Of a DNA stretch of 15,943 bases, positions 1,902 through 4,978 are shown in pieces (positions within the stretch are counted from its first letter, which is position 1; each line of letters begins with the position of its first letter). The stretch comes from Candidatus Sulfotelmatobacter sp. GTDB lineage: Bacteria > Acidobacteriota > Terriglobia > Terriglobales > Acidobacteriaceae. The position numbers were made by a program, and so were the translations under genes. The notes under the pieces were generated by a model, which made no database searches, was not told where the DNA came from, and saw only the letters and a program-made list of their open reading frames with translations. The stretch is taken from assembly GCA_030049565.1 (NCBI GenBank), contig JASIKQ010000134.1, forward strand, positions 1-15,943, read 5' to 3'.

Positions 1902-3050
1902 ATGGCCGATGAGCGGGGCAAGGCGATCGATCTGGCAGTTTCACAAATAGAAAAACAATTTGGCAAAGGCTCGATCATGCGCCTGGGGTCGAAAGAGGCG
2001 ATCGTGCCGATTGCGGTCATTTCGACCGGTTCGATCTCGTTCGACTCCGCGTTGGGCGTGGGCGGATTTCCTCGCGGCCGCGTGGTTGAGGTTTTCGGGC
2101 CGGAATCTTCCGGCAAGACTACGATCACTCTGCAAGTCATCGCGGAGGCGCAAAAGACGGGAGGCATGGCCGCGTTTGTCGATGCCGAGCACGCGCTCGA
2201 TCCCGCTTACGCCAAAAAACTTGGGGTTGACGTCGACAACCTGCTGGTCTCGCAGCCCGACTATGGCGAGCAGGCGCTGGAAATCACGGAGGCGCTGGTG
2301 CGCTCGAATGCGATCGATGTGCTGGTGGTCGATTCGGTGGCGGCGCTGGTGCCCAAGGCCGAACTCGATGGAGAAATGGGCGACAGTCACATGGGATTGC
2401 AAGCGCGGTTGATGTCGCAGGCGCTGCGCAAGCTGACGGGCACGGTTTCGAAGTCGCGCACTTGCCTGATCTTCATCAATCAGATTCGCGAAAAAATCGG
2501 CGTGATGTTCGGCAATCCTGAGACGACCACCGGCGGCCGCGCGCTGAAATTTTATTCGTCGGTGCGGGTGGATATCCGCCGCATCGCCGCCATCAAAGAG
2601 GGCGACGTAGTCACCGGCTCGCGCACAAAAGTAAAAGTGGTCAAGAACAAAGTGGCCGCGCCATTCCGCGAAGCCGAGTTCGACATCCTCTACGGCGAAG
2701 GCATTTCCCGCGAAGGAGACCTGCTCGACCTGGCCGTCAATAACAATCTCGTAGAGAAGTCCGGCTCCTGGTTCAGCTATAAAGGCGAGCGCATCGGGCA
2801 GGGACGCGAAAACGCGCGCCAGTTCCTCAAAGACAACAAAGAAATCTTCACCCGCCTCGATGCCGAAGTTCGCAAGGCCTGCGGACTAACTCGCGAAGCC
2901 GTGGCGGGGCCGACCCCACTGTCTGCCGAGGAGAAAGAAAAAGCGAGAAGGGCGTCTGGCCAAAGTCCGGCGGTGCAAGGAGGCCGCGTCACCACGATGC
3001 CCACCGGAACCGACGCGGTGAAAGCGCCCATTGTGGCGGCCCGGCGGTGA
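1902..3050 (+). CDS. recA: RecA recombinase
   Basis: ATP-dependent DNA strand-exchange protein for homologous recombination, and coprotease for LexA-type repressors. Of 382 residues, Walker A is GPESSGKTT (66-74), the catalytic Glu is E96 in DAEHALDP, and Walker B is VLVVDS (140-145). The L2 DNA-binding loop is around 194-212 ([18 protein letters not shown]). All core motifs are intact. The ATG has AAGGAG at 1886-1891. The protein is about 30 residues longer than the E. coli enzyme. The extra tail after residue 335 ([19 protein letters not shown] onward, ending APIVAARR) is rich in Ala, Pro, Lys and Arg rather than acidic. No recX follows; instead a repeat-bracketed GIY-YIG gene lies downstream. 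Confidence 0.99.
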
Positions 3051-3101: not shown

Positions 3102-3230
3102 TGTCATCCCGAGCGAAGCGAGGGATCTGGGTTCTTGCTTGCACCGTCACCGCTTCCGCCGCTCGGCAGAAACCCAGATCCCTCGCTCCGCAAACGGCGC
3201 TCCGCTCGGGATGACAAGTCTAAGGGGCGG
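3102..3230. repeat. Palindromic repeat element, copy 1 (hairpin-forming)
   Basis: A 129-bp unit. Its first 115 bases (3102-3216) begin TGTCATCCCGAGCG and end CGCTCGGGATGACA. The left arm (3102-3135) pairs with the right arm (3168-3216), except that the right arm carries about 14 extra bases, so the stem has a large bulge; the loop is about 32 bases. A further 14 bases (AGTCTAAGGGGCGG) are also shared with copy 2. It lies 51 bases after recA and ends 20 bases before the GIY-YIG start codon. Repeats of this type are common in acidobacterial genomes, as I recall. Strandless folding in either transcript could also terminate recA transcription. Confidence 0.95.
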
Positions 3231-3250
3231 CTAGTGAACAGAGGTGGAAG

Positions 3251-3580
3251 GTGCGTGACGAAAGGCGCTATTTCGTCTACATTCTGACGAATCCTTCGCG
3301 CACGCTTTACACAGGCATCACGAACAGCCTTCGCCGCCGCGTTCGCGAACATAAGGGAAAGCGCGCAGACGGATTTACGGCGAGGTACAACATCAGCCGC
3401 CTGGTTTACTTCGAGAGCTTTGTAGACGTGCGCAACGCAATCGAGCGTGAAAAGCAGATCAAGAGCTGGACTCGTGCGAAGCGCGTGGCACTGGTCGAAT
3501 CCGTGAATCCCAAATGGGATGACCTGTCGCGGGAGTGGGATCAGCCACAGACATTCCGCTTCATTCCGAAGTCAGCGTAA
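3251..3580 (+). CDS. Single-domain GIY-YIG nuclease family protein (COG2827/UPF0213-like)
   Basis: A 109-residue protein consisting of the GIY-YIG nuclease fold. The two-part signature appears as FVY (8-10) and YTG (20-22). It is followed by the helix with the conserved Arg (LRRRVREHK, 27-35), FTARYNISRLVYFE (42-55), and the metal-binding Glu in EREKQIKSW (E67). It ends with the usual SVNPKWDDLS block. All key residues are present, so it is probably an active endonuclease, although the physiological substrate of this small family is unknown. The start is GTG at 3251 with AGAGG just upstream (3240-3244). It sits between two nearly identical hairpin repeats, 20 bases after the first and 9 bases before the second, suggesting a link between nuclease and repeat. 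Confidence 0.92.
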   Translation: MRDERRYFVYILTNPSRTLYTGITNSLRRRVREHKGKRADGFTARYNISRLVYFESFVDVRNAIEREKQIKSWTRAKRVALVESVNPKWDDLSREWDQPQTFRFIPKSA

Positions 3581-3589
3581 ACCCATCCA

Positions 3590-3718
3590 TGTCATCCCGA
3601 GCGAAGCGAGGGATCTGCGTTCTTGCTTGCACCGTCACCGCTTCCGCCGCCTGGCAGAAACCCAGATCCCTCGCTGCGCAAACAGCGCTCCGCTCGGGAT
3701 GACAAGTCTAAGGGGCGG
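3590..3718. repeat. Palindromic repeat element, copy 2 (hairpin-forming)
   Basis: The same 129-bp unit as at 3102-3230, in the same orientation, with five mismatches by my alignment (about 96% identity) and no indel. Arms are 3590-3623 and 3656-3704. It begins 9 bases after the GIY-YIG stop codon. Two of the mismatches are adjacent in the loop (TC versus CT), one alters the left arm, and two fall in the bulged part of the right arm. Confidence 0.95.
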
Positions 3719-3779
3719 TCAGCGCGAGGGATGGCAACCGAGCGGTCGAAACCCAGCAAAACCGTAATATCATTAGAAA

Positions 3780-3825: not shown

Positions 3826-4809
3826 TTAGCGGCCTTTATCGTGCTTCTCCTCCCGAGGGGCGTTTTCGTGCTGAGGAGGTTTCGTCTGCTTGGCCGGCTT
3901 GGAAGCGTTCTTTTCTGGGTTTTCATTCTGCGGATGCGCATTCTCGGGGCGGTTGTTTCCAGACGCCGGCCGGTTCGGTGCGTTAACCGAATGCCCGCCT
4001 TCATTCCTTGAAGCCGGCGGAGTCGATGCCCGCGCCTCGCGCGGCAACATCGCGGGAGCGTGATACGGCGCACCCGCTGAGCGCGCCCCGACCACGCCGC
4101 GTCCCTTAAATTCGCCGGGACGAGCGGTCGCTGCTACCGCCGGCGCTCCGTGATTCACCGAAGCAAAGTTGGCGCGGTCTTGATGCGCCGCATGCTCCTG
4201 CTGTACTTGCGACGCAAGCGCGGCTTGATGCGGCTCACGCGCGTAAGCCAGTTCCTGCGCCGTCGGACGCGCCTGCACTCCGCCCGCGCCGCCATTGAAG
4301 GCCACATGCGATTCATTATTCACGATCACGGTACGGTTCACATACACGTTGGTCACGTGTACGGTATCCACGCGCATGACGGCAGTGTTGTAGAAGAAGG
4401 CCCCGCCGCGCCACTCGCCGCCGACGAATCCGACGCCACCGTAGCCAAAGCCGTAGTTGATTCCGCCATAGAAGCCGATGTGCGGTCCCCAATATCCCGG
4501 ATTCCACACATAGACGCCGCCGCTCCATCCCCAGTAGCCGGGTGTCCACAACATGCCGACCGGCGCCACAACCCACGTTCCCGGTACCCAGTAGTAGCCA
4601 TCATCGTCGTCCCAGGCCCAGTAACCAGGAGTCCACAAATAGCCGGGGCCGGGGCAAAACGGCTGCTCATAAACCGGCAATGCCGGCGGACCGATGCGCA
4701 CAGAAATGCCGACCGCGATCTGTGCGGAAGAGGGAGAAGACAGCGCTGCTGGAATCATCAGCAGCAAAAGTGCAAGAGCGAGAAAATGAACTGAACGGTG
4801 CAGTTTCAT
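3826..4809 (-). CDS. Exported YXWGXW-repeat protein
   Basis: A 327-residue secreted or envelope protein of unknown function. Residues 1-29 form a signal peptide (MKLHRSVHFLALALLLLMIP, then SSAQ). Residues about 55-110 contain the WxPGYW-type repeats that define the family (LWTPGYWAW, YYWVPGTWV, LWTPGYWGW, VWNPGYWG). A Gly/Tyr-rich stretch follows (110-132). The C-terminal third is a low-complexity Asn/Pro/Glu/Lys/His-rich tail ending KHDKGR. I chose the ATG at 4809 because GAGG lies 9 bases upstream and the signal peptide begins there; an in-frame ATG at 4833 would add eight residues. It is followed by a terminator at 3780-3801 and appears monocistronic. Confidence 0.85.
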   Translation of the reverse strand: MKLHRSVHFLALALLLLMIPAALSSPSSAQIAVGISVRIGPPALPVYEQPFCPGPGYLWTPGYWAWDDDDGYYWVPGTWVVAPVGMLWTPGYWGWSGGVYVWNPGYWGPHIGFYGGINYGFGYGGVGFVGGEWRGGAFFYNTAVMRVDTVHVTNVYVNRTVIVNNESHVAFNGGAGGVQARPTAQELAYAREPHQAALASQVQQEHAAHQDRANFASVNHGAPAVAATARPGEFKGRGVVGARSAGAPYHAPAMLPREARASTPPASRNEGGHSVNAPNRPASGNNRPENAHPQNENPEKNASKPAKQTKPPQHENAPREEKHDKGR

Positions 4810-4978
4810 TGTGTTTTTCCTCGTGCCGGGCATTCGCCCGGGTCTGAAAGATAAAACACTGTTCCTATAAGGATGTTGCGATAGAGCTAACTTATGAGGA
4901 TTGTAGAGCGTGCCGCCACTCGGCGGTGGCTATCACAGACCACCCCGGAGGCCCCGAGCTCTGGGTGCCCGGCGCTTT

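Follow-up and report, generated by a model that had tools for sequence, protein, structure and literature searches.

A small GIY-YIG nuclease gene bracketed by REPINs in an Acidobacterial genome, a candidate mover of C/TGTC-tagged REPs

REPs were split in the 2013 survey of Di Nocera et al. into a GTAG superfamily, found with RAYTs, and a CGTC superfamily, for which the accessible part of the survey gives no association with a transposase gene and leaves the mover of the repeats open (PMC3733652). The GTAG repeats and their RAYTs are the described system closest to the locus reported here. In the accessible part of a study on them, RAYTs are single-copy genes accompanied by many REPINs, and REPINs are commoner in those E. 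coli genomes that have a RAYT gene (PMC8049555). An earlier, sequence-only reading of our locus had likened its nuclease gene, wrapped in palindromic repeats, to this REP/RAYT (TnpA-REP, REPtron) arrangement, and the likeness holds in part. In both cases the palindromes on either side of the gene are of its own type, this type co-varies with the protein, one or a few genes go with tens or more of repeats, REPINs are made of inverted pairs, and genomes that carry the gene are richer in repeats. The enzyme, however, is a different one, as only PF01541 (GIY-YIG) was matched here, whereas RAYTs are HUH/Y1 tyrosine enzymes (PF01797). The tag also differs, being TGTC in the window and mostly C/TGTC in its relatives as against GTAG in the RAYT palindromes, and our gene is not always found between outward-facing inverted repeats. 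Since both the HUH/Y1 domain and the GTAG tag are absent, the nuclease is not a RAYT; what the two systems have in common is arrangement, specificity and copy structure.

The window, by which we mean the whole stretch of 15,943 nucleotides that was analysed, has recA on the plus strand (1902..3050), followed on the same strand by a first repeat of 129 bases (3102..3230), a GIY-YIG nuclease gene with a GTG start that encodes a single-domain protein of 109 amino acids (3251..3580), and a second repeat in direct orientation (3590..3718). An ORF on the minus strand, labelled YXWGXW in the sequence-only reading, lies on the far side (3826..4833). The geometry described in that reading was borne out, in that the two repeats share 124 of 129 bases (about 96% identity), the gaps between gene and repeats are exactly 20 and 9 bases, and no obvious target-site duplication is seen in the window. 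Each repeat had also been described as an imperfect hairpin with arms of 34 and 49 bases, and this was recovered as a nested hairpin when the repeats were folded as single-stranded DNA, with an outer stem of 14 bp and an inner stem of 17 bp (one inner mismatch in copy 2); the arms are unequal because an extra small hairpin sits on the 3' arm. The fold energies were -42.3 kcal/mol (z -7.3) and -40.1 kcal/mol (z -6.4), and none of 200 shuffled sequences was equally stable.

On closer inspection, a pair of inverted TGTC-tagged REPs separated by a spacer, in other words a REPIN, describes the 129-base unit better. Copy 1 has TGTCATCCCGAGCGAAGCGAGGGATCT at its left end and the imperfect reverse complement of this at its right end. 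In the left REP of copy 1 (3102..3128, plus strand), an unpaired TGTC tag is followed by a 5-bp stem (ATCCC/GGGAT), a GA/GA internal loop and a GC-GAA-GC mini-hairpin; folded alone as single-stranded DNA (3102-3127), this REP is weak (z -1.3), with 21 of 200 shuffles equally stable. The tip of the REP reads GA-GCGAAGC-GA, with possible tandem G-A pairs beside GCGAAGC, which is an exceptionally stable DNA mini-hairpin. We also observed two ORFs of 82 amino acids (3104-3352, minus strand, and 3519-3767, plus strand) that are largely translated repeat, and spurious ORFs from such repeats may inflate protein databases.

The nuclease gene is a free-standing ORF, and the sole Pfam match of its product is PF01541 (55.3 bits; cut-off 22.6). 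Residues that are invariant in 26 aligned sequences include Y20, G22, R30, H34, E55, R66, E67 and K71, with Y10 nearly so; we take the catalytic residues to be among these, and with PF01541 they place the protein in the GIY-YIG superfamily. A helix of the form AIxREKxIK is largely invariant in the same alignment and may serve in recognition. Foldseek, run with an AlphaFold2 model (pLDDT 85.7), gave a single match below E 0.001, the UPF0213 protein 1zg2, and then Slx1 nucleases from E 0.012; the PDB sequence matches were 1zg2 and 1ywl. NCBIfam, PHROGs and PADLOC models did not match the protein, Rfam gave no match at the gathering threshold, and phage records searched with the protein returned three weak matches and nothing indicating a phage origin.

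UPF0213, or YhbQ-like, small GIY-YIG proteins (1zg2, 1ywl) are the best matches in both sequence and fold and share the single-domain architecture. YhbQ and COG2827 are, we assume, labels for small GIY-YIG proteins of this kind, and we know of no established function for the UPF0213 proteins. GIY-YIG homing endonucleases (I-TevI, I-BmoI) resemble the window protein in catalytic domain and in selfish context, but the window gene is without intron, intein, NUMOD or other C-terminal DNA-binding domain. Slx1 shares the GIY-YIG fold (Foldseek 6seh, E 0.012; 7cq4, E 0.13) and is a structure-specific nuclease that acts on branched DNA; it is, however, eukaryotic and has Slx4 as a partner according to the entry titles, and to our knowledge it has no link to repeats.

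We favor the interpretation that this REPIN-nuclease-REPIN cassette is one case of a partnership that crosses phyla, joining single-domain GIY-YIG nucleases of one clade to C/TGTC-tagged repetitive extragenic palindromes, and that the nuclease probably recognises, nicks and disperses its own REPs much as a RAYT does. Under this scheme the nuclease would recognise, through the tag and stem, the hairpin that its own REP type forms in DNA that is single-stranded or extruded, and would then nick at or near the REP. The nick would start copying or recombination, whether by strand transfer or through repair, and REPs and REPINs would in this way be dispersed in trans, the enzyme being the cause of the spread of the repeats. 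The gene itself would be kept at low copy between cognate REPs, and would occasionally be gained, lost or moved with them.

The sequence-only reading had proposed a search for empty sites in related genomes, and insert-free sites do exist, at the sufB-sufC junction in Azospirillum and between recA and coaD in the genus of the window, with a Sphingobium locus as a partial case. In A. lipoferum a REPIN-gene-REPIN arrangement lies between sufB and sufC (L152, gene 2498-2791), and A. ramasamyi, A. oryzae and B510 have just a short gap at this junction, with 94.7-96.2% identity over the matching 71%. Shinella PSBB067 has a gene of the same kind at sufB-sufC with a different repeat type (L219, about 965-1389), and unrelated small genes are listed at this junction in other records. 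Among 30 recA loci, five (the window included) have the gene with repeats, three a gene-free repeat and one a lone tag some 1 kb off; another is cut short within a repeat, and in the remaining 20 no tag was seen as far as coaD or inside 1.4 kb. The gene follows recA on one contig in G040, G023, G036, G028 and G026. The far side of the cassette is rearranged in the window, since most of the relatives that we read have there the gene that we label coaD. At the Sphingobium fnrL/response regulator junction, two strains have REP-gene-REP, two have one palindrome and one has none. A deletion running from one ACCCCGGG copy to the other, these being short direct repeats inside the two inverted REPs, would leave just such a solo palindrome (L158/L220 compared with L215/L217), so loss, and not gain alone, must be considered; this suggests hairpin-assisted loss of the gene at this locus. 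No target-site duplication was callable at the Azospirillum and Sphingobium junctions, where the edges are too diverged.

These sites also bear on the strongest rival to our interpretation, an unlikely one in our estimation, which is that the GIY-YIG gene is a homing-type parasite that cuts gene-free REPs and has its cassette copied in by repair, making the REPs landing sites and not cargo. GIY-YIG is a known homing nuclease domain according to the accessible part of PMC1564403, the two Sphingobium strains with a single palindrome have it exactly where the others have REP-gene-REP, and the recA-coaD repeats without a gene (3 of 30 loci) could be such landing sites. Homing, however, predicts many near-identical gene copies, and 45 of 53 within-genome paralogue pairs (from G018, G070 and G010, the tandem pair L173/L174 being excluded) are less than 55% identical, with one pair at 93%. 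Homing is also at odds with the excess of repeats over genes, at least 45 to 1 in the complete chromosome G150, where one intact GIY gene of the profile is accompanied by at least 45 repeat places, two of them adjoining the gene. Kamptonema has a single gene alongside 61 repeat matches, many of them partial, and in G013 a single gene goes with at least 36 repeat matches. Furthermore, the gene is flanked by full REPINs, not half-sites, in both the window and A. lipoferum, and Pfam found no extra DNA-binding domain in the protein.

The assembly that contains the window is a draft of 3.48 Mb, 73% complete, in which 26 matches to the 129-base unit were found, three of them inside the cassette; the two copies in the window are the only full-length ones and the others are mostly the TGTC-tagged end. 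Three GIY-YIG matches were found in this genome, namely the window gene, one within a 668-aa frame (L011) that is presumably UvrC, and a second small gene (L010) with no such repeats beside it. L010 was dropped as a paralogue control because its search returned mainly repeat-associated genes. In 45 genomes, the eight carriers of a window-type gene (at least 73% identical, a line chosen after the list was seen) had a median of 25 window-type repeats versus 11 in the other 37 (p 0.0015), the counts being lower bounds to be read as relative only, with at most 19 candidates scored per genome. Many window-type repeats were also found without a window-type gene in G010 (34 repeats, genome 99% complete), G039 (25, 96% complete) and G044 (32, only 61% complete).

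Persistence of REPs without a close gene, as in G010, is what one might expect if the nuclease were instead a domesticated hairpin-processing repair enzyme, with the REPs regulating its expression or serving as substrates for removal and some other enzyme spreading them. The weak fold likeness to Slx1 fits this idea, as does the closeness of the nearest palindrome tags of five stem types, which lie at a median of 54 bases before the gene (118 of 140 loci, distances measured from the homologous region) and 42.5 bases after it (102 of 140). We nevertheless consider a repair role improbable, given that cognate repeats are more numerous, not fewer, in carriers, and that the gene looks mobile; its presence is patchy, with the window protein matched in 85 of 150 related genomes (0-9 matches each), and its sites are gene-free in relatives.

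For the reading that we prefer, in which the nuclease would disperse its own REPs, the company that the gene keeps in other genomes is central. At 30 near loci, one being that of the window and the others the top locus from each of 29 further genomes, a palindrome tag of one of the five stem types was found within 250 bases at 30 of 30 and on both sides at 23 of 30, and a motif test over 200 bases was positive on any side at 30 of 30 and on both at 21 of 30. Genes for recA in the same genus, which are themselves at the hot spot, had the motif on both sides in 2 of 30 cases. A profile made from 26 sequences then recovered at least 578 relatives in GTDB genomes, of which the best 80 were kept, 75 from 25 named phyla and five unplaced. 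This sample, as the best of at least 578 from a profile of near relatives, is biased to the clade and consists mostly of metagenome assemblies; two of the 80 loci are records also present among the near loci.

In a comparison of the kind that the sequence-only reading had proposed, GIY-YIG genes are flanked by repeats more often than control genes. The motif GTCATYBYGA occurred on both sides of 45 of 80 GIY-YIG genes versus 1 of the 304 neighbour genes; at least one side had it in 72 of 80 and 37 of 304, respectively. In a motif-free count, the most enriched 6-mer was TGTCAT (70 of 80 versus 63 of 304 neighbour genes). With the five-type tag within 250 bases, 72 of 80 cross-phylum genes scored on either side and 52 on both. 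Among 299 neighbour genes, 54 scored on either side and 6 on both, and among 101 small ORFs (80-150 aa, mechanically called) 15 and 1, respectively; none of the five main tags was found at 8 of the 80 loci. Repeat flanking is therefore the usual state of these homologues, across phyla and near the window alike. Together with the insert-free sites, these counts mean that none of the three outcomes named as refuting in the sequence-only reading came about. A test for a tag with a matching 5-base arm placed repeats on both sides of 49 of the 80 loci, on one side of 17 and on neither of 14, with at least one in 93 of 903 control windows; this test is blind to GGGACCT-type ends and was passed at only 15 of 30 near loci. 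The three tests replaced a strict perfect-stem hairpin detector, which missed known repeats. An outward-facing inverted pair was present at 33 of the 80 cross-phylum loci and at 17 of the 30 near ones; in the window there are two direct REPINs, each an inverted pair.

The type of repeat also matches the gene. We found that: (i) the main stem type upstream equals that downstream in 44 of 52 two-sided loci, compared with a shuffle mean of 12.5, and none of 10000 shuffles reached 44; (ii) in three genomes with paralogues (8, 6 and 5 loci), repeats upstream and downstream of one gene match, a fit equalled by 34 of 40320, 2 of 720 and 6 of 120 permutations, with repeat types that differ between most paralogues and are shared by some pairs; (iii) within genomes, repeat similarity climbs with protein identity (rho 0.39, 53 pairs, p 0.004) and (iv) on a protein tree of the 80 loci, 64 of them scorable, stem types require 23 changes versus 35.8 when shuffled (0 of 200 as low) and a mean of 28.9 when shuffled within phyla (1 of 300 as low as 23). 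Shuffles alone were used on this tree because it is built from few columns, is weakly resolved and has no starred branch. The ATTGC stem type accounts for two changes, with its nine loci spread across at least five phyla; ATCCC and ATTCC, taken singly, showed no significant clustering on the tree. REP type thus co-varies with protein type.

It is very improbable that this association reflects passive build-up, with REPs inserting by chance around small dispensable genes, GIY-YIG genes included. REPs are indeed common, as the 26 matches in the window's own genome and the control genes with the motif on at least one side indicate, but the rarity of two-sided flanking among neighbour genes, small ORFs and Y1_Tnp genes contradicts this explanation, as does the agreement of stem types. 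Least credible of all is mobilisation of the repeats by a RAYT/Y1 or other transposase elsewhere in the genome, since, although 43 of 45 genomes in the genus carry Y1_Tnp genes, the best of these RAYT-family genes (30 taken from many matches) had the motif on both sides in 0 of 30 cases and on either side in 1 of 30, and the accessible part of the 2013 survey likewise gives CGTC REPs no such association (PMC3733652).

The CGTC superfamily is the described class of repeat to which the GIY-YIG-associated palindromes come closest, sharing a C/TGTC (or CCTC) tag and a stem that is mostly AT-initial. A tblastn search of plasmid records gave 35 records, ten of which were opened, picked for variety. 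By the five-type tag alone, six of these ten named loci score, five of them on both sides; the remaining named loci count only if CCTC tags or other stem starts are allowed. In Azospirillum lipoferum 4B, Rhizobium CIAT894 and Shinella WSC3-e the gene is flanked on each side by CGTC-stem-CCA palindromes, reading CGTC-ATCCCCGC-GAAG-GCGGGGAT-CCA, CGTC-ATCCCAGGG-CTTGA-CCCTGGGAT-CCA and CGTC-ATCCTCGGG-CTTGA-CCCGAGGAT-CCA, respectively, and all three have the CGTC tag, AT-initial stem of 8-9 bp, loop of 4-5 bases and CCA tail of the superfamily. The tags are C/TGTC with different stem starts in Novosphingobium and Sphingobium, CCTC in two Sinorhizobium and TGTC in Planktothrix and Spirosoma, and Photobacterium (L160) has a REP downstream only. 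In Planktothrix, the plasmid gene (L155, 2498-2782) has an MmeI-type restriction enzyme on one side and DISARM drmA on the other. A. lipoferum, S. meliloti and N. aromaticivorans, which all have GIY-flanking repeats, are species named as CGTC carriers in the accessible part of Di Nocera et al. 2013, where no enzyme is associated with these repeats (PMC3733652). The window repeat itself has the unpaired C/TGTC tag and the AT-initial stem (TGTC-ATCCC...GGGAT), but in place of the 8-9 bp stem, 4-5 base loop and CCA-like tail it has a 5-bp stem, a GA/GA interruption and a GCGAAGC tip, and then CT; because stem length and tail depart in this way, it is a TGTC-tagged relative and not a member of the CGTC superfamily.

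We lean towards the wider view that mobilising the C/TGTC-tagged REP superfamily is, throughout bacteria, the dedicated role of the GIY-YIG nucleases in this clade. They would then constitute a second, independently evolved system of REP dispersal, in which a GIY-YIG protein of about 100 amino acids stands in for the HUH transposase and tells hairpin types apart by tag and stem. The nuclease is, in our opinion, a strong candidate for the long-missing enzyme partner of CGTC-type REPs. In searches of open-access journal papers, judged mostly by their listings, we found no published link of GIY-YIG nucleases with REPs. With a matching nuclease beside the repeats in 25 named phyla, the question of what moves the CGTC REPs becomes testable with one protein and one oligonucleotide. 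If this wider view is correct, it would suggest a function for genes annotated just as 'GIY-YIG nuclease family protein', and it would help to account for an abundant class of bacterial intergenic repeat.

A further observation concerns the DNA upstream of the gene in Acidobacterial homologues. The window gene is without the TGTGAC...GTCACA-like motif, and by eye many of these homologues (L163, L165, L166, L167, L171, L172 and L176-L178) have either this motif or TTCAT(C/T)CGTCACAGAC shortly upstream, a sequence that we take to resemble a CRP/FNR-type site.
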